A stretch of DNA of 64,000 nucleotides from Pseudofabraea citricarpa (Eukaryota > Ascomycota > Leotiomycetes > Helotiales > Dermateaceae): contig JAPWGK010000019.1 in the NCBI GenBank assembly GCA_029641185.1, positions 558,001-622,000 on the forward strand, given 5' to 3'. Every line of letters begins with the position of its first letter. Positions within the stretch are counted from its first letter, which is position 1. The notes beneath the pieces were generated by a model. It saw only the letters and a list, made by a program, of their open reading frames with translations, searched no databases and was not told the origin of the DNA. Positions 3,184 to 31,417 of this stretch are shown one piece after another. The position numbers and the translations under genes were made by a program.

Positions 3184-6100
3184 CTACCGTTTAGGACGTG
3201 ATCCACCCCCCAATCTTCCAAACTTCCCAAGACTGCTCTTTGGTTTATGCGCCGCTGGCTGAGCTCCCGTGGTAGCTGGATCCTTGCCTGGCAATGGCGG
3301 TCCTTGTAAGCGTGTCAATCCTTGGAAGGCTCGAGAGTCAAGGCCTTCGCCAGCTCGAATATCCACCACCCCTAAGCCATCGTCAACATCACCACCAGGC
3401 CGTTGTGCTCGTCGAGCTTTCTCCTGGACACTCCTGAACTTCTCAAGGAGGTCTACCCATCGGATTCCTTCGTCCCGTCCTTTCAACCTATTAGACCGGT
3501 CAAAGTTGGATGGCCCAGCCGTAGAGGGTGAGCTAGATGATGTCCCATGAGTTTCCGTGCTAGAGTTTTTCTGACGTTGATGAAATTGGAGATTGGAGAC
3601 TGCCTCAACGACACTGTTACTACGAGAATGAGATACGTACGCTCGGGGAGCAATATGCAAATAGCCTATTGCGCTCACACTGTTGAGCCTATTCTTAAGA
3701 GCTGCGAATGCGGATGACTGTGGAAGAAGCATGAGAAGGCCATAAAGGCATTTGTATAAATGGGGGTGTTTTTCAGGTTCAAGTAGTTGGAGTCGGAGAT
3801 CTGCCAAGGTACAATCAGCAGAAGTGGTGTCTATTTGGTATGAACAACGCACAAGTGAATACCGGGGATTCTAGTAACTGGACCAGTTTATCAATCTGTA
3901 TTAGCATGTTAACAGTCATCTCTAGCTCTGCACTATATAGCAAAAGTCAGCAGCCATCTTCAATTGGGTGCTAGAGCATACAAAATCTGCAGAAGGTTGT
4001 AAGCTTGTTCATATGCTTGAGCTAAAAGACACAGTGAGAAGGTGGCGACAGCGTTGTAGCACCAGGATCGAAAGAGGGCGACGAAAAATGTCTGGCCATC
4101 CTGTAAACAGTTAGTCTAGTAACCGCGAATAATTGATACGGGGTGCCTGCCTTGGTTTCAAGATTGCGAAGTCTTTTGCGAAGCTCTGCAAGCTCCGGTG
4201 CTGTGATAAGGTTATTGTTTAAATTTTGGACCATAATGCTTGCAAATTCCACGTCTTCTTCTTTTTCGATACAATCGGCGAGGGTGCGGTATATTCTTTC
4301 AGCGCTTAGACTGACACAAAGTTGCCGAATAATGAGATTTCCTCGTGTTTCCAACAGTTTACGATCTGTGGAGAAAAGTTGTAACAGATTGACCATGAAA
4401 GAAGTAAAGTAGTCATCTTCGCTGTTGCGAGAGATCTGAGATAGTAATTGAAGGTCACGGGTTACTACTGCTTCTGCTGGATCTGATAGTGTCTTTAGAA
4501 GTGCAGGAAATGTGCCGTCATTGAACGCAAGAACTTTCCTGGGAGCTTTTCGATGCAACATGAGAAGCCAGGTGAGAGCGGCAACTCTTGTGGCTTCGTG
4601 GTCGTTCAAGAAAAGTAGTGTTAGAGAGTTGACAGCTGCAGCATAATCCAGGTCAACCTGTGGCTGTGGAGCCGGAGGCAAAGGAGTAGGTGGTTTGTTG
4701 TATGGTGGAGGCGGAGTCTGTACTTCTGACGATCTTCTATCGATTTCTCGAGATCCTGAAAGAGAGCCTCGAGTATTGGTGGAAGAATCACGCGCTTCTC
4801 GCCGATCGGTTGTTGCGTCCTTTAATGCCGTGGTAGGAATCCTCGAGGGAGGTCTGGAGTTGCTGGCTTCTGATGGGGCTCCTTCATCAGATAACGATAC
4901 CACGTAATTCATAAGGGATGTGTTAACGCGTCCAGCCGCCTGTCGGATGGTCTCGACTCCGCTCGCCATTGCAGGTAGTAGATGGGCTAGAATTTTCGGT
5001 GCGAAGGGAAGGACTTCCTCGGGGCATATATCAAGGAATTCGACAATCCACCTCAGGGACTCTAATAGACTATCCTCCTCTGTTCTCAATTAGCCTAGGT
5101 TATCGTCAGACATTAGAAGATGTCTTACCAAGAGGTGAGTCTAGGTTCGCTGTCAGGGTTTCTAGGATTTCCTTGTGATTGACTTGGACATCCTGTCCAG
5201 GCACCCAGTCATCATCACTACTGACATCCTTATCATCGAGGCCTGTATTGGATTCGTCGTCGTCAGCTGCAGCATCATGCGCCATATCCATGCTGTCGCT
5301 GTCCAAGGAGCCGGAGCGCTTGCGTTTTCCGTCACTACGCGACCTTCTACTCTCTTCAATACCTTTCTTGATGCGAGAAATACGCTTGATCTCGCTCAGG
5401 AACCTCTCGAGAGCGCCCTGGGTGGCCACATGGACATCACGGTTCGGATCACTCAAGAACTTGAACAGGCCACCTAAAAATTCAGGGAGGAACGAAACAA
5501 GTTCCAGGTCAGGAATGGAGTCAAGCAAGGTGATCCATCCCACAAGGAAGGTGCGAGTGAACGGGTTGATTACGTATATCCGTTCCTTGAGTAGAGGAAT
5601 AAAACGGGCAAGAGAAAAGGCCGTCGGCATATCAACCAAGGAGCCATCTTGTGAGATTTTATCCTCATTCAGGTTGGAATCTTCCGATGTGTGCAGTATA
5701 GAGACGTACGTGGCTGCGGATTCAGATACAATATCCTTAACCAGTCTGTCAAGCAGTTCTGCTCCATTCTTTACGGAAAGCTCAGAATCGGCGCCAAGCT
5801 GGAGTCATTAGATTCTGCACCCAAACTGAGGATTGCAGACTTACTTTACACAGAGCATCGAAGATGTCGTTGAAGTACGGAAGCACCTCTCCTTTAGCAA
5901 CCTTTGCAATATTATACATGCTTTCGCAAGCATAATACCGCACTCGAGCATCTTGATCAGTAAAGCAAGCCAGCACCGGCGGCACGATCTCATCCAGATA
6001 GCGGGCCAGTTCCTGTTACAAATTAGGGGCGCTGTCTTCGGTATTGAGGTTGGAACTCACAGGTCCTAACGCAATAGCTGCGGCTGCCAACCCTATCAGG

Positions 6101-20468: not shown

Positions 20469-23400
20469 CTATGATGAGGCATTGGCCTTAGCCATAGTGT
20501 TCAAAGCACTTCCATTCTTGAACCATTCAATTTGTGGTGCGTTGTAGGTGTGTGCAAGCTTAATATCAAAAGTCTCACCGCCGTTCTTGGGGTGGACACG
20601 GAGAGTCATTGGCTTTCCAACGGCAAGCTCTGTGCACAAAAGATCGACCTGGGTACCAATTAGATAACATGTTTGCTAACAGGAGGGGACGGTCTTACCT
20701 TGTCTTCTGGGTTGATTTTATCATAGTCCTCTGGGTTGATGAAGGTCAGAGGAAGCATACCTTGCTTCTTCAAGTTGGTCTCGTGAATTCGGGCAAACGA
20801 TTTAGTGATAATGGCAAGTCCACCAAGATGTCTTGGCTCAAGAGCAGCATGTTCTCTTGAAGATCCTTCACCATAGTTCCAATCACCGACGACGACCCAC
20901 GGAATGCCCTTCTTCTTGTAGTCTCTGGCGGTGGCTGGGACTGCATCATATTCACCGGTGGTGAAGTTCTTGACCTTGTTGGCTTCACCATTTTCAGCAT
21001 TGGTAGCACCGATAAGCATGTTGTTAGAGATATTGTCCAAGTGACCACGGTATTTGAGCCAGGGACCAGCCATGGAAATATGATCAGTGGTGGTCTTTCC
21101 CTTAGCCTTGATGAGGATTGGGATGTCTGTGGCATCCTTTCCATCCCAAGCCTTGAATGGCTGAAGAAGTTGTAAACGGTCACTGGTTGGGGAGACTGCA
21201 ACAGCGACAGAGTCACGGGTTGCAGGTGGTGCTTGATAGGTGTCCTGTCCAGGGTCGTATCCTCTCGATGGAAGACCATCTCCAGTTGGAGCGGCCAAAA
21301 GGAATTCGTTTCCGTCCTTGTCCTTTAGCTTATCGGTAAGAGGATTGAAGTGAAGGGAGCCGGCAATGGTCATTGCTACGACAAGATCTGGCGAAGTGAC
21401 AAAGGAGTGAGTGGCGGGATTTCTGTGGAAAAATTAGCATTCTTGAATTCTCTAAGGGAAAATCAGGAATCAGTACGCGTCATTGCGGGCGCTAAAGTTG
21501 CGATTATAAGATGATATGATAGAGTTGGCTTGTCCTTTCTTGACGTCCTTGCGGTCCCATTGTCCTAAGGGGGATGTTAGTAGACAGTTGATGAAGTAAG
21601 AAGTGGATGGATTTCTTACCGATGCACGGACCACAGGCGTTAGCTAGAACCATACCTCCAAATTCCTCAAGAGTTGCAAGTTGTCCACTGTGTAAAGTCA
21701 ATGAACGAGTTCTCCAAGCAATGCAGACGGTCTACTCACTCTCTGGCAATTGTGGCACGAACTTGCTCTGAGCCTGGGGTGATGGTGAACAAAGCCTTGG
21801 CCTTGATACCGTGGTCAAGAGCGTCACGAGCAATGGAAGCAGCGCGAGACATGTCCTCATAAGAAGAATTGGTGCAAGATCCGATCAGACCAACTTTGAG
21901 CTCTTCTGGCCAGTGATTGGCCTTGACAGCTGCACTGAACTGGGAAATTGGTGTGGCAAGGTCTGGTGTGAAGGGACCATTGATGTGAGGTTCGAGCTCG
22001 GACAGGTTAATTTCAATAAGCTGGTCATACTCAACGCCCTCGTCTGCTCGCAGCTCCTTTGCATAGACACGAGCAAAGTCGCCAATGTCTGATCGCTTGG
22101 TAGCTGCAAGATAATCATACATTCGATCATTGAAGGGGAAAACAGATGTTGTGGCGCCGATTTCAGCTCCCATGTTAGCAATGGTACCTGATCCCGTGGT
22201 CGAGATAGATTCGACACCGGGTCCTGAGGTAGTGATGTTAGTGTCCATGTTGGTGCAGACATTCATCTTGTCCCAAAAACAGAATAAAAATGACGGTCCA
22301 AAAAAAAGTGGGACCCTCCCACTAGGAAGAGTTTTGTTGCTGGGCGGCAGCACGCTGAATGTGCCGCTTTCCAGCGTTGTGTCGCTCCAGGTCGTACTTG
22401 AGCTTGAAACCAGAGTCGCAAATCGAACAGTAATGTGGCTTCGAGTCTTGAGCAACTTTGGGGGCGCCATGCTTCTTGGTCTGGAGGTGTTGGTCCATCT
22501 TCCACTGCATGTCAAATGAAATGTCACACATCTCGCAGTAGAAAGGATCCAAGGGAAGGACAACGTCTGGACCGCCATGCATTGGTCCCTTGAGGTGGTT
22601 CGCGAGCTCGTCTGCACGCTTGAAGACGTCTCCGCAGGGATTGCATTTGTGGACCTTCTTGGGGAGCAGGTGTGGAGCAGTAAGTGCAATGTGGTTCTTG
22701 GACTTTTGATGGTTCGAGAACTCAGTCTTGTGCGGGAAGAGCTGATCGCACGGTGCACAGAAGAAACGCTTTTCTTTCAAAGCCTTTTCGCGTCCCCTCC
22801 GCTCAATCTCTCTCTCTCTCTCCGGGTTGTTCTTGCGGGACTTTTGACGATGCTTCTTTTCTTGGAGACGGTACTTTGCAAGGTCCTTCTGCTTGGATTC
22901 CTGTTTCCACTTGCGGACATAGGCTGAACGTGCTTGTGTGAGTTCCCGTCCACGAGCTTCCAATTCTTCAGCAGACAAGTTAAAATCGCCAGCAGGGACC
23001 TCAATCAACGGATGATGGGTACACAGACCCTTGTACGTGACCATGGCTCGGTCCCAAGGACTAGAATCAGCGAAGGCCATAATGAACCGTGTCTCGGAAT
23101 GCATGGTCCAGAACGCAAAGGCGAACATGGCTTCAAGGGCCACAAATGCACAGCGTCTAAGGGGTGCGTCTGCATAACTGGGCATGGTTCCTGTGCATAG
23201 GAACCCCTTGTTGACGAGCTCATAGCCTAGGTCCAAATATTTCAAGACAAATCTTGGAAGTGCGATTCTGGACAATGTGTCGTAATGTCTGAGACGTGCC
23301 GCCGCTCCAGATGTTGTATGCGTTGCGGACCCAATGTAGACTCTTGGGGTACAACCTTCTTTTTCGAGGACCAAAGCATAGACACCCCAGACACGTCTAG

Positions 23401-25528
23401 ACTCGATGGTGAGACCTTTGAAGAACTGAATCGTAGGCGGAGCAGGAGCTTGCAGGACCTCAAAAAGACCAGGAGTGTAAACCATGGACGCAGACTCAAG
23501 GATACGATGAAGTATGGATTGACTGGACAGCATCTTGGGAATGAAGGCTGGGATGTATTTCTCTGTGAACGTGGTCATACAGATCCATGTGAGCTTTAAG
23601 ATCAGCTTTGGAAGGGTGTCTGGACCGTCAAGGTCAAGGTCCATGTCAGGATGCTCCAAGTCCATGTCTGCGGAATCGGGACCCTCAAGAAGTTCCATGT
23701 CAGAAAGTTCCAAGTCCATGTCTGCATCTGTGGAACCGGAACCCTCAAGAAGTTCTGTGTCAGAAAGTTCCAAGTCCATGTCTGCATCTGTGGAACCGAA
23801 ACCCTCAAGAAGTTCCATGTCAGAAAGTTCCAAGTCCATGTCTGCGTCTGTGGAACAGGACCCTCAAGAAGTTCCAAGTCAGGAAGTTCCAAGGTTCACG
23901 TCTATGCAACGGGACCCTCAAGAAGTTTCAGGTCAGAAAGTGCCAGACGAATGTCTGCGTCTGTGGAACTGGGTACCTTCAGGTGCAAGGCAAGTCAGGA
24001 TGTCGGAATTGGTATCGGTCCTGGACCACAGGATGTCGGGGGCGAAAGCTCAGTCTGTGATCATGCAGGTCCGTTGTGGGCTGAGGGACGCTGATGCTTG
24101 AAGTTTTGAAGAGATGGAGACGGACAATGGCGAGAAGAAACATTTGAAGGGCTGTTGGGACACTAAAGTGGTCCTGCCTTTCTGATGGACGTTGCTGAGG
24201 CAGGAGACATAGACTGGAGTGAGGCCATTTCGTAAAGCTGTTGGGGACCATGAGGTGTTCCTACCCTTCTGAGGGACGTTGCTGAAGGACAGACACTGTG
24301 ACCTTGTGGACGGAGACACAGACGGCAAGAGCGACGCCATTTTGCAGACTTGTTGGGGATGACGAGGTGGTCTGGCACTCCTCAGAGACTTTGCGGACGT
24401 AGGACCACCTTCTTTTGGAAGGAACCATCTTACACTCCTCAAAGACTTTGCTGAAGCAGGTCCACCCCTTTTGGGGATGACGGTGGTCCTGCACTGCCCA
24501 GAGACTTTTCTGGTGCAGGACCACCTTGTTGTTGAAGAGACTTGGTCCTGGACTTCTCAGAGACCTTGTTGATTCAAGTGACGGATGTTGAAATAAAAGC
24601 AATTGTTACGAACCACTAGAATAAGTTAGCAGAAGTTTTGAGAATTGCGAATAAGCGACTTACAAGTATTCAATAATCGCACCAGTTCCTCCCTTCACAG
24701 TGAGAATACCAGCAACCTTCAAGATAATGTCTACATAGCCATTAGCATTTTATCACATGCAAATCGGAGGGCGCAATTACCTTTCGGCGTCGTCCAGCCA
24801 GAAAGCTCGCCAGTAAGCTTAATACCAATGACCTTTGGTGCCTTCAACTCCCAGGGAAGGTTGGCCATAACGTCAACAGCATCAGCTCCACCGACACCAA
24901 TGGCGCACATTCCTAGACCACCGGCGTTGGGGGTGTGAGAATCGGTACCGATGAGAAGTCCACCAGGGAAAGCATAGTTCTCGAGGAGAATTTGATGAAT
25001 GATACCAGAGCCAGGTCTCCAGAAACCAATGTTGTACTTGGCGCAAGATGTGGAAAGAAAGTCGTAAACTTCCTTGTTGATGTCGATAGCTCGGGTCAAA
25101 TCCTTTACACCTCCCACTTGTGCTTCAATCAAATGATCACAGTGTACAGTGGTTGGGTTTGCGACGGATGGCATGCCTGCGGACATGAATTGGAGGATTG
25201 CCATCTGGGCAGTGGCATCTTGACAAGCAACGCGATCTGGTCGCAGCTTGAGGTATGAGACACCACGCTCAATCTCTTGTCCGTGAGGATCATCAAGATG
25301 TGAGTACAGAATCTTCTCGGCATATGCCAAGGGTCTGTTGAGTCTTTGTCGGACAATGGCCAAGTTCTCAGACATCTTCTTGTAGTTGATGAAGTTGCCC
25401 TCCTCGTGGATGTTTTGTTTGACCTTCTTGTCGAGAGGGGAGTCGCCGACAGTGGCCATTCGACGAATGCCCAGCTGTGCCATTGCTGGCCGCTGAGCAG
25501 CACGCAGGAATTGTCGTGAAGCCAGCAT
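20469..25528 (-). CDS. ACO1: Mitochondrial aconitase, interrupted by a 2.4-kb ORF-bearing intron
   Basis: Exons: 24781..25528, 24664..24730, 24614..24615 (2 nt), 21740..22223, 21620..21687, 21477..21564, 20699..21422, 20469..20648; 786 residues. Aconitase isomerises citrate to isocitrate in the TCA cycle. The N-terminus is presequence-like. The 4Fe-4S ligands are C389 (in GSCTNSS), C452 and C455 (in ACGPCIG), with the spacing of the mammalian enzyme. Six introns are 48-55 nt. The exception is 22224..24613, which splits the conserved EYFGPG region. Joining GAATACTT to GACCC directly would shift the frame; keeping TG restores Phe-Gly-Pro. The first ATG used (25528) follows a polypyrimidine-like leader; upstream in-frame ATGs give a less plausible start. 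If the large intron is not removed, the protein would stop three codons into it. Confidence 0.9.
22322..23839 (-). CDS. GIY-YIG nuclease-like protein with four C2H2 zinc fingers, nested in aconitase intron
   Basis: One open frame of 505 residues. Residues 1-75 are acidic 20-residue repeats from the 60-bp array. Residues 150-245 look like a GIY-YIG nuclease: G152-V-Y154, Y168-I-G170, Arg182/Arg184 in the following helix, and Glu236 as likely metal ligand. A basic, Lys/Arg/Glu-rich helix (305-357) leads to four fingers of identical spacing C-x2-C-x12-H-x5-H: C361/C364/H377/H383, C399/C402/H415/H421, C435/C438/H451/H457, C471/C474/H487/H493. This spacing is of the matrin/U1-type or JAZ-type class. 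GIY-YIG proteins cleave DNA, including as homing endonucleases; zinc fingers could give target recognition. The start at 23839 is the first ATG after a stop nine codons upstream; translation may begin at a later Met (103 or 119). Function inferred. Confidence 0.75.
23610..23985 (-). repeat. 60-bp tandem repeat array (acidic 20-residue repeat)
   Basis: Copies recur at exactly 60 bp (23701-23760, 23761-23820), flanked by shortened copies (54 bp at 23647-23700, 59 bp from 23821, about 54 bp after). On the minus strand full copies encode [24 protein letters not shown] units. The 59-bp copy breaks the frame and creates a stop just upstream of the present ORF start. Confidence 0.9.
24070..24600 (-). 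repeat. Degenerate ~85-90-bp repeats
   Basis: Imperfect copies share AGCAACGTCC(A/C)TCAGAA, a GG(A/T)CCACC-like segment and CCCCAACA(G/A) about 85-90 bp apart. They sit at the 5' end of the inserted intron, upstream of the 60-bp array. The unit is too diverged for exact borders. Confidence 0.6.
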
Positions 25529-27700
25529 TGTGAGTGGAGTGGATAGGATTGAGGATAAAAGAGAGGAAGAGGAATCGAAGAAGAAACCGGCAAAGAAGAG
25601 CGAAGCAGCTTTCCTGGCCTGCCGTCGTCTTATCAACCGAGGGCGACGAACGGGCTGCCTTCCAGCGTAGCCAATCAGGGCCGGGTAATTAGCAGCCGCG
25701 GGATCACGTGTCTATTTTCGAGGCAGGATGATGTAAACGGCGGTGCAGGTTCCAATGGTTGCAGCGCGATATGCGGGTTGCGTATGCCCGTGGAGGAAGT
25801 TTGGGGTTGGAGTCGGGGAGAGGGGGCGTTGGCAGGAAGTTGTAATGGTCAGGATACAGATGCAGATACAGACACAGCAGCAGTCGAGGGTATTTAACAG
25901 ACTGTGGAGATGTGGTTGTTTTCGTAATGAGTGAGAGCTGGATGGCTGAATGTCTGCCGGCACAGCGATCATCGGGGCAGAAGTGCGAACTTCGGGCGTC
26001 ACACAGCTTCAGATTTTTTTCCCATGGAGGCTCCACTCTTGTCTTTTGCTCGTGCTCTGGACTTTGAGCCTCGGGCCCCGGGTTGATGGGGACGGCGGTC
26101 TTTGAATTTTGTACGATAATCTTTTAGTAATTGTTACATTCTTGACAACCATTTGTTCTACGCTTGTTACACGCTTTATAGTTATTATATGCTTTGCAGT
26201 TACTAGATGTATTATAGCTACCATGCTTCATAGCTACCATGCTTCATAGCTACCATGCTTCATAGCTACCATGCTTCATAGCTACTGTAAGATTCACAGT
26301 CACTATAAGCTTTATAGACACTACAACCCTCGCGGTTATCATATGCTTTACAATTATTCATACCCGTTGACCGATAAATCATTTTACCTTCAGCATTGCT
26401 CGTCCCGGCCCGGGTCCTATATCGTCTCCTCAGCACTGGTCCTAGTCCTGAACAAATTGGTACCGCTAATTGGAATTATATTACCTTTAACACTGACCCC
26501 AGGTCACTAACACATCAGCATCATCGTGTCGCCTTCAGAATCGGACCCAGGTCCTCCGTAAAAATAAAAATAAAATCCATCTTCTTCGACCTGGACCTCA
26601 CCGACCTGGACCCGTGCGGTTCTGGTCCTGTACCTTATTCCTCGGTCCCTTGCCCCGCCTCCCGTTACCCGGCCCAACTAGTCTAATCCGTATATTCTTT
26701 ATAGCAACTATATGCTTTATAGCTATCATATTACAGAAATATATGTATATACACAATCGTCAAGTATAATTATTATATACTTTATAAGCACTATATACAT
26801 TATAGTTGATATACATGTGTAGGTATATATGTATATGTAGCTGTTATATGTAGTTCTTGTACATGGTGATTTATACTTTATAACGACTCCATATTTGATA
26901 GCTTGTTACTGTTATATTTATATTGATTGTTATATTCTTATGGGGGGAAGATCCTTGGCTTTTGATAAAATACAAAACAGCGTAAACCGGCCACTCTTTT
27001 AAGCTCGTGATTTCCACTCTTCCGGCGGCTTTTGTGCTTCACTCAGTCACTTATAGTCCTACCCTAGCCAGTGTTTCTCAGGCATAAGATACCTATCTAC
27101 CTAGGTAGGCACAACAAATAAAAGAAAGAAACAGTAACAACATGCAAAATAAATACCGAGCAAGTATTATTTCAGTTCCTTTTCAAATCCTTAGAATCTG
27201 CCATACCTATACCGTCAAAAGACTACCAAGTCACCTTGGCAATACTGGTCGCGGTGGCTAAAGCCCGTTTCTTGACGCTTCCCTGCTCTTCACATGTTAT
27301 AAAGGTCGGAGCCGCACATGATCAAGATATGCATTCTTTAGAAGACTATTAATACAGAATATTAGCTCGTCAATGTCCTCAGCCAGCCGAGCCAGCCTCG
27401 AGCACACGCGACGAGGCACAAGACCACGCGACTCGCGAGGCATAATGGAAGGCACTGTAGCCGTGGCCGTGGCCGTGCCATACACGAACCCTTCCTTCAT
27501 GACGAGTGCCCTTTGCTCGGCCGCGCTTCTCTCCCCTGACTTCTACGAGTACCAAGAAACGCCATCAGAACTGTAGAGCGTCCCAGGTCATCGTGGGCTT
27601 CACCATTCTCTACATTTCGACTACCTTTGCCCCGGAGTGACTGAGTCTCACAGACATCCTGGCTGCCCAAAGCCAGCGCACGGCTTCGTCAATCTCGTCG
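25529..27700. other. Repeat-rich, partly AT-rich intergenic region
   Basis: About 2.2 kb between the divergent ACO1 and CRAL-TRIO genes. Proximal parts should be promoters. The middle (26.1-27.0 kb) is AT-rich and made of degenerate 16-18-bp TATGCTTTATAGCTAC-like units, interrupted by a GC-rich patch at about 26390-26690. A CTACCTAGGTAG palindrome lies at 27097-27108. No gene is supported. Confidence 0.65.
26222..26285 (+). repeat. 16-bp minisatellite (CATGCTTCATAGCTAC)x4
   Basis: Four perfect tandem 16-bp units. Diverged relatives of the unit extend from about 26150 to 26360 and reappear at about 26690-26900, so this is the least degenerate part of a larger satellite-like tract. Confidence 0.95.
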
Positions 27701-29786
<2,086 letters not shown>

Positions 29787-30182
29787 AATGCCTTATCCTA
29801 AGCTCAGACGAGAATAAGATTTTGGCTTTAGATGACTGTATATATGGTACGTGTTGGCGTCTGGCTGGCATTGCATCTGGATAGAATTTTTTCTGTTTCA
29901 AAAGCATGTTGGTACCATTAGAAGTTATGTTAAAAGCTAGCGTACACAATTGGGCATACACAATAGTAGTCAACAAAACCATAGCAAGCACTTCTGCGCA
30001 TCATAGCACTTTATGTATTAGTTGTTCACACTAATGCCATCATTGCAAGTGCTGGCTGCTCTCGTCTAAACTAATAGTGGCAAAAGCCTCCGTGTATCTC
30101 ATTCCGATATGAGAATTATTGTACATATCCCAGTCCAGGATTTGTGAGCCTAGACGCCATGCCTCCATGCCCACCTAACAAA
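29787..30182. other. Convergent 3' region
   Basis: 396 bp between the stops of the CRAL-TRIO gene (+) and RPN9 (-). AT-rich 3' UTR sequence, no gene seen. Confidence 0.6.
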
Positions 30183-31417
30183 TCATGCAGCCCAAACATC
30201 TTGACCTTTTGACTCGATCCAGTTGCCGAGCGAGTTAACGCTAGAATCCCATTCCTGTAGCCTCGTGCGCATGTTATTGATTTGTGTCTTGTCCAACACC
30301 TTTGGTTGAACCCAGTTGATGCGCGCAATCTCGTCCACCTGGTCAATACTGCCGCGCAACAGCCCAAGGCTCAAAGCTTTCATAATCAAGTGCTCAATCT
30401 CGTCAGGTCTGACCTTCGTCTCTTCGGCGATGGTTCGGAAAGACATAGCACGATCGTGTGGGGGTCTTCGGAAAACCGTCTCTGTAAGAGCGGCAAGATA
30501 TATCTTCTGTCTCAAGCCGTCTCTGTGCTCTGCGAGGAGGGGATTTGAGGAGATATTTCCTGCCAGGACGTCATATGCAGCTAAATCACCACGATTGAAT
30601 GCGAATAACAGATCCCGAAGCCAAGCATCGTCTTTGACTAGCGAATCCAGAATTGGATGTAATAGAAGCTCGCCGAAGTTGTATATCGTGTCTGAGACAA
30701 GTGCGGCAATGCTGAGATCGTAAGCGCGGCTCTTTCGCTCACCTGGCGTGAGGTCGTTCAAATCTATACAAGCAAGATATAGAAGAGCATTTCGATAGTA
30801 CGCCGCGAAGTCAAGTTTAGACTACTGATATTAGCATGATTCAGAGACTGGCACAGGTCAACAAACCTGATAGTATTGAGAATTCGCCTTGTAGAAAGCA
30901 GCATGCACGATTGTTTCGACAGAGTCAAATCCATCCAAGATCTTCTCTGACTTATCCAAATCCTTGCGCGCTCCCTCCAAGTCCTTCAACTCAAGCTTGA
31001 CCTTCGCGACAGCAACAGTGGCGTATACATAGGCATCTTGTGAGTTGGGGTTGTTGACCTTGTCTGCAGCGGCAGTCAAGAATGATAGTCTTTCTTGTCC
31101 ATCTAATTTTGGTCAGTATTATCTGGGACAAATGGGCTCTGAATCTTACCACGGCACTGCTCAGAGGCTTTCAGTGCTAAGGTTACGAGCTTCAGCTGGT
31201 TGATTTTGTCTGCGAATGTGAGGATGAAGGTCTTGTAGAATGGTAATCGTTGTTGTACGCTGTCCGGCTGGTTGAAGAACTCAATCAGTGTCTCCGTCAA
31301 CTGATGCCATAACTTTCGCTCCCAAAGATCCTCAAAACTCAGAAAGAAGTGCTGCAGATCCGCTGGAGCAGAGTCTCGCTGCTCTCCCAGGAAGTCTGGG
31401 ATTGTGTCGATGTTCAT
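30183..31417 (-). CDS. RPN9: 26S proteasome lid subunit Rpn9 (PSMD13)
   Basis: Exons 31150..31417, 30867..31102, 30183..30821 give 380 residues. The N-terminal two thirds are helical repeats. The PCI domain occupies roughly residues 180-350 and includes the block VFRRPPHDRAMSFRTIAEET and the winged-helix part WVQPKVLDKTQI. Rpn9 is a scaffold subunit of the proteasome lid, next to Rpn5 and Rpn10 in known structures. Introns are 47 and 45 nt with GTAAGA and GTTTGT donors. It diverges from the complex I gene, with 284 bp between the start codons; that short region is likely a bidirectional promoter. Confidence 0.95.

Follow-up and report, generated by a model that had tools for sequence, protein, structure and literature searches.

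A probable spliceosomal homing intron carrying a GIY-YIG/zinc-finger endonuclease in the mitochondrial aconitase gene of Pseudofabraea citricarpa

A 64,000-nucleotide stretch of DNA from the fungus Pseudofabraea citricarpa (contig JAPWGK010000019.1, positions 558,001 to 622,000; hereafter the window) contains ACO1, the gene for mitochondrial aconitase, interrupted by a 2,390-nt insert with an open reading frame (ORF) of its own. We conclude that this insert is probably a nuclear spliceosomal homing intron, which would carry its own GIY-YIG/zinc-finger endonuclease. The window lies on one of the 43 contigs of a 43.99 Mb genome, in which the proposed elements have three putative members, two with intact ORFs, in ACO1 and CPA2, and one decayed, in ATP2.

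In the model we favor, the nuclease would be made from the intron and would cut alleles of the host gene lacking this intron, at a coding site that is conserved, its zinc fingers providing the specificity of cutting. Repair would then copy the intron into the cut allele. Removal of the intron from pre-mRNA by the spliceosome, which we see as splice signals and a restored frame, would spare the host protein. Each nuclease lineage would be tied to its own target gene and would be kept by spread between alleles and, at times, between species.

The insert and its host gene

The features of the host gene and of the insert are as follows, in window coordinates.

20469-25528, minus strand: host gene ACO1 (mitochondrial aconitase), 786 aa once seven introns are removed
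24616-24663, minus strand: ordinary ACO1 intron of 48 nt, ending 2 nt upstream of the element
24614-24615, minus strand: 2-nt microexon TG between the small intron and the element, required for TTT GGA (Phe-Gly)
22224-24613, minus strand: the element, a 2,390-nt intron in ACO1, placed by splice signals and by the restored F-G-P-G and aconitase frame
24608-24613, 22237-22241 and 22224-22226, minus strand: GTTCGT donor, CTAAC and CAG acceptor of the element
22322-23863, minus strand: 513-aa ORF with a provisional start codon, encoding a putative homing endonuclease of the GIY-YIG type that bears C2H2 zinc fingers
23666-23969, minus strand: 60-bp tandem repeat, 5.2 copies, overlapping the ORF start
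23084-23401, minus strand: predicted GIY-YIG nuclease domain, ORF residues about 155-260
22361-22759, minus strand: four C2H2 zinc fingers, ORF residues 369-501

A preliminary description of the window had proposed that a 2,390-bp segment splits the Phe-Gly-Pro-Gly codons of ACO1, and this was borne out: the spliced protein (786 aa) aligned with mitochondrial aconitase 1c96 over query residues 37-781, and the alignment was gap-free at the insert site. The GT donor, CTAAC and CAG acceptor attributed to the insert were all located in the sequence. Read on the minus strand from 24613 to 22224, the element runs GTTCGT...CTAACATCACTACCTCAG and is followed by exon GA CCC GGT. The ACO1 introns measure, in order, 50, 48, 2390, 52, 55, 54 and 50 nt, so that the six introns other than the element span 48-55 nt, in agreement with the earlier figure of about 50 nt.

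The boundaries of the element stood as first proposed (22224-24613), whereas those of the small intron beside it required correction. This intron occupies 24616-24663, reads GTAAGT...GCTAACTTATTCTAG after exon GAA TAC TT, and is separated from the element by the 2-nt microexon at 24614-24615. Phe-Gly-Pro-Gly can be read at the junction only if this TG is retained; with both adjacent introns removed, ACO1 reads Y-F-G-P-G.

A run of short repeats containing CTACCATGCTTCATAG is found upstream of ACO1 (window 26216-26285).

The intron-borne ORF

The 513-aa ORF exceeds in length every open frame in 300 dinucleotide-preserving shuffles of the insert (maximum 330, mean 157), a share of that length being contributed by the 60-bp tandem repeat. 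The same-strand GIY-YIG/zinc-finger frame announced in the preliminary description was recovered, its two parts by different routes: the zinc fingers by Pfam, the GIY-YIG part by predicted structure and catalytic residues. Pfam on the full ORF at E up to 1 returned the zinc fingers and no PF01541, and the nuclease domain submitted alone returned nothing. Likewise, PF01541 was absent among the 25 of 80 Pfam families listed for 56 family members. PF01541 models sequence and does not define the GIY-YIG fold.

Structure comparison of the predicted nuclease domain gave I-TevI as the best match. The catalytic residues Y162, Y176, R190 and E244 are all present in the ACO1 ORF, at positions that are invariant or at least 90% conserved in family alignments. 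Judged by its predicted fold and catalytic residues, the putative product is a member of the GIY-YIG nuclease superfamily, and its C2H2 fingers are presumed to be the DNA-recognition part. The Pfam GIY-YIG model matched the genome at a single place, which lies elsewhere (C4:1226275-1226427) and is possibly an Slx1-type gene.

Further copies in CPA2 and ATP2

The preliminary description had suggested a search for copies in introns of other genes, and within this genome such copies were found in CPA2 and ATP2. Protein searches with the window ORF, the ORF of the CPA2 copy (contig C34) and protein P0008 had three nuclease-domain loci in common, namely those in the window, on C34 and on C8; copy counts from these searches are lower bounds. 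All three ORFs lie on the host-gene strand in long introns of conserved genes, and the copies are 32-39% identical to each other.

The C34 copy lies inside CPA2, which encodes the large subunit of carbamoyl-phosphate synthase, and its ORF is intact. Only one other close CPA2 match occurs in this genome, a C39 paralogue that is 50% identical and presumably URA2. The CPA2 insert measures 2,502 nt up to the conserved codon and has a GTAAGT donor and a GCTAAC site. Both CPA2 halves are otherwise open and align across the site to the carbamoyl-phosphate synthases 5dot and 1bxr. CPA2 has another intron, of 330 nt, which contains no element.

The C8 copy lies inside ATP2 (F1-ATPase beta). Its 1,546-nt insert starts 3 nt past the 3′ splice site of a 50-nt intron, and the microexon between the two, GTC, restores ALTGLT. 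The reconstructed protein is gap-free there against solved beta subunits, with a one-residue gap a few residues later. The nuclease has decayed, with two in-frame stops and HIG replacing YIG. The ATP2 introns other than the element measure 48-100 nt. Canonical spliceosomal ends delimit both the ACO1 and the ATP2 elements.

As a DNA query, the ACO1 element matched only itself in the genome, in a search that skips simple repeats. A further protein match, C8:307452, covered the zinc-finger part only and was dropped before counting. Tandem repeats lie ahead of the ORF start or overlap it in the CPA2 element (L008, on C34, 5123-5687), as in the ACO1 element; none were found in ATP2. The elements also contain GGACC motifs, most strongly in CPA2, where 2.5 kb hold 31 of them; the window has about 0.8 per kb.

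A related family in other fungi

A first search with the window ORF returned 8 proteins. When the domain of the CPA2-borne ORF was used instead, 179 of 939 candidates qualified as relatives at E ≤ 0.001, and 120 of these were listed. A profile search with the full alignment returned at least 6 proteins, all already known; its low yield probably stems from zinc-finger words. Four classes are represented by named relatives: Dothideomycetes by Recurvomyces and Elasticomyces, Eurotiomycetes by Neophaeococcomyces, Leotiomycetes by Pseudogymnoascus and Sordariomycetes by Colletotrichum. Further genera represented in the family are Cadophora, Verticillium, Cephalotrichum and Aureobasidium. Pattern scans gave 44 and 46 stretches in two passes over viral contigs and 447 in a single pass over genome contigs, none confirmed as a relative; neither collection is fungal, and these negatives say little.

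Three of the 120 listed relatives (P0003 from Recurvomyces, P0041 from Elasticomyces and P0098 from Neophaeococcomyces) are named carbamoyl-phosphate synthase cpa2. None of them matched the CPA2 protein of P. citricarpa even at E 10, and the likeliest explanation is that they are gene models inside the cpa2 locus. Seven relatives were compared with the CPA2 copy: P0010 is 72.7% identical to it, P0042 (Pseudogymnoascus) 62.2%, P0041 58.4%, P0003 55.1%, P0040 48.1%, P0001 45.7% and P0098 43.8%. Thus 4/7 stand at 55-73%, against 37.2% for the ACO1 copy from the same genome. This is the pattern to be expected if the sequences represent separate target-bound lineages and not a transposon multiplying in one genome.

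The main tree comprised 52 rows, 50 chosen from 125 proteins plus the two intact copies of P. citricarpa. It placed the CPA2 copy in a 20-row group (SH-aLRT 100) together with P0003 and P0041. On a possible tie between nuclease lineage and target gene, the three cpa2-named relatives point both ways: two group with the CPA2 copy and the third stands apart. The ATP2 copy was placed in the FastTree only, on a very long branch, and its position was given no weight.

Position of the insertions

Introns may account for some 3% of a genome of this kind. On this estimate, and with strand not counted, finding 3/3 copies in introns by chance has a probability of about 3 in 100,000 and is very unlikely. 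The element adjoins a small intron in two of the three cases, ACO1 and ATP2 but not CPA2. The chance per insertion of starting 1-3 nt downstream of an existing acceptor is about 0.8% in ACO1 and 1.6% in ATP2. The nuclease may cut near old intron sites, or homing may have entered a species already holding the small intron.

All three insertion sites fall within regions where the alignment to solved homologues is good; judged by the alignment around each site, this would fit homing. For ACO1 and CPA2, the corresponding coding site is also present whole elsewhere in the genome. Aconitase paralogues are found on C12 and C42, and the one at C12:1451502, 62% identical over the whole 235-aa query, has EYFGPG uninterrupted; the C39 carbamoyl-phosphate synthase has NYNPET uninterrupted. 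Both are paralogues, from which it follows only that a whole form of the conserved coding site exists, not that an orthologous allele was empty.

Alternative explanations

Several observations weigh against a homing intron and have to be set beside the evidence for one. The GTTCGT donor of the ACO1 element is unusual. In CPA2, no AG adjoins the conserved exon (L008, C34 around 3340-3350, minus strand), which puts a canonical splice there in doubt. AG ends in the stretch read occur at -113, -84, -76 and +20 relative to the conserved codon, and two patterns designed for a hidden microexon found none. It must be considered that the CPA2 acceptor is non-canonical, lies elsewhere or is obscured by a sequence error. 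At a fourth place (L023, C12:2673520-2673666), a stretch rich in AT holds a short and decayed piece of a nuclease of this family, and no host gene was recognized in the 3 kb read around it. On the protein side, Foldseek alone matched I-TevI to the domain only at E 1.0. The whole-protein model had no structure match at E ≤ 0.001 in either library, its search returning mostly zinc-finger matches and a few weak viral GIY-YIG rows. The database name cpa2 is an indirect pointer to location. Moreover, P0098 (Neophaeococcomyces) falls outside the CPA2 group and nearer the ACO1 copy; a single group of the CPA2 copy with P0003, P0041 and P0098 was rejected (AU p 0.0009, tested after the first tree had been seen), and a 128-row FastTree gave the same split, its local support values being 97 and 99. 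More than one lineage may have entered CPA2; alternatively, the cpa2 name may mislead in the case of P0098.

A nested host gene, that is, a vertically inherited nuclease/zinc-finger gene sitting immobile in an intron and possibly domesticated for DNA repair, would account for the intact ACO1 and CPA2 ORFs, for their orientation on the host strand and for a coherent, conserved family. We nevertheless regard it as unlikely, since two more copies, of which one has decayed, occupy introns in conserved genes other than ACO1, copies within the genome differ more from each other than the CPA2 copy does from several relatives elsewhere, and the nearest solved fold is that of a homing endonuclease. Insertion of a transposon-like element by a non-homing mechanism, with survival only of insertions that gained splice sites, would agree with the presence of elements in several host genes and of new introns beside a small intron in 2/3 cases. 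Such an origin is quite improbable: the copies are few and highly divergent with no burst of similar ones, no two of the three elements share a 13-mer and so they have no common ends, and no nuclease-domain copy was found outside genes in the genome protein searches, which set lower bounds.

Damage to the host gene, in which the insert would be poorly removed, ACO1 impaired and the cell reliant on the aconitase paralogues, could be argued from the unusual donor, the 2-nt microexon, the C12 and C42 paralogues and the missing CPA2 AG. Otherwise, however, the exons of ACO1, CPA2 and ATP2 keep an open frame all the way from start to stop, which neutral decay is not expected to preserve, and we consider this explanation very improbable. 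Mitochondrial group I introns typically carry endonucleases of the GIY-YIG class, and the element could in principle be a degenerate self-splicing intron of group I or II that came from mitochondria together with its homing endonuclease. The genome does hold LAGLIDADG genes on C36, which is probably mitochondrial. The canonical spliceosomal ends in ACO1 and ATP2 and the failure of the Pfam GIY-YIG model to detect any of the three copies in the genome search argue against such an origin, which we find scarcely credible. A group I/II ribozyme was sought with Rfam and rejected: neither intron group matched the ACO1 insert at E up to 10, or the CPA2 and ATP2 loci at E up to 5; the sole matches listed for the three loci were two snoRNA families at E above 7.

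C36 carries six LAGLIDADG matches at 26870-30457, three with in-frame TGA, and all LAGLIDADG matches of the genome are on this contig, which suggests that it is mitochondrial DNA. HNH_3 had no match in the genome.

Known mobile introns and significance

Fungal nuclear homing elements include inteins (VMA, PRP8) and rDNA group I introns with His-Cys nucleases. Like the proposed homing intron, these are selfish nuclear elements that home at conserved sites and spare the host product; unlike it, they are removed by protein splicing or by a ribozyme and not by the spliceosome. Introners and stwintrons are mobile or newly gained spliceosomal introns and include adjacent-intron arrangements, features shared with the elements described here, but they have neither an endonuclease gene nor target-gene specificity. 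With I-TevI and other group I GIY-YIG endonucleases, the ACO1 protein would share fold, catalytic positions, an intron-borne location and conserved target sites; a zinc finger is present in I-TevI as well, within the linker. The differences are that no ribozyme was found here, that the ends are spliceosomal, that the C2H2 array is C-terminal and that there is no Pfam GIY-YIG match.

The closest precedent is viral. A paper on mirusviruses (PMC12768974, Nature Microbiology, November 2025) counts 334 nucleases borne on introns, GIY-YIG accounting for 132. It introduces the name "shintrons" for spliceosomal homing introns and states that nucleases of this kind were previously unobserved in association with spliceosomal introns. 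Shintrons and the present elements have in common spliceosomal-type introns, homing-type nucleases including GIY-YIG, conserved genes and perhaps a target-gene preference. Shintrons lie in viral genes (PMC12768974), in contrast to the fungal nuclear metabolic genes and GIY-YIG/C2H2 family found here. The ACO1 and ATP2 elements have canonical spliceosomal ends and no group I/II signature, CPA2 differing by its missing AG, and the ACO1 element carries a predicted homing-type endonuclease within the intron. The two viral-contig scans yielded no GIY-YIG/C2H2 relative; the two nuclease families were not directly compared.

The preliminary description had held such a system to be unusual. Mirusvirus shintrons now provide a precedent, and in that respect the claim needed revision. 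A literature search by title and abstract, mostly without subscription journals and bioRxiv preprints, found among the papers listed no other report of such introns, be it for cellular nuclear genes or for any other setting. This kind of mobile intron is one we found described only in mirusviruses, which are giant viruses, and the fungal nuclear case would be a new setting. Otherwise the original interpretation, in which homing and splicing are predictions, is partly supported, gaining strength from the intron signals, the predicted fold, the zinc fingers, the two further intronic copies, the related family in many fungi and the 3/120 listed relatives named cpa2.

On balance, we lean towards a broader conclusion, that cellular nuclear genomes harbor a large, unrecognized class of selfish spliceosomal homing introns. 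Its endonuclease family, found in at least four classes of Pezizomycotina, would hit conserved coding sites of genes for mitochondrial proteins, move between species, hide by means of the spliceosome and, as the nuclease decays, leave behind new spliceosomal introns as a source of intron gain. Spliceosomal introns are usually viewed as passive. If the proposal is true, a homing nuclease hiding in a spliceosomal intron would join two systems thought to be separate and would provide nuclear genes with a direct and testable route to site-specific gain of introns, and mirusvirus shintrons would not be a viral peculiarity. Since the nuclease family is widespread, the prediction can be tested with existing fungal genomes.

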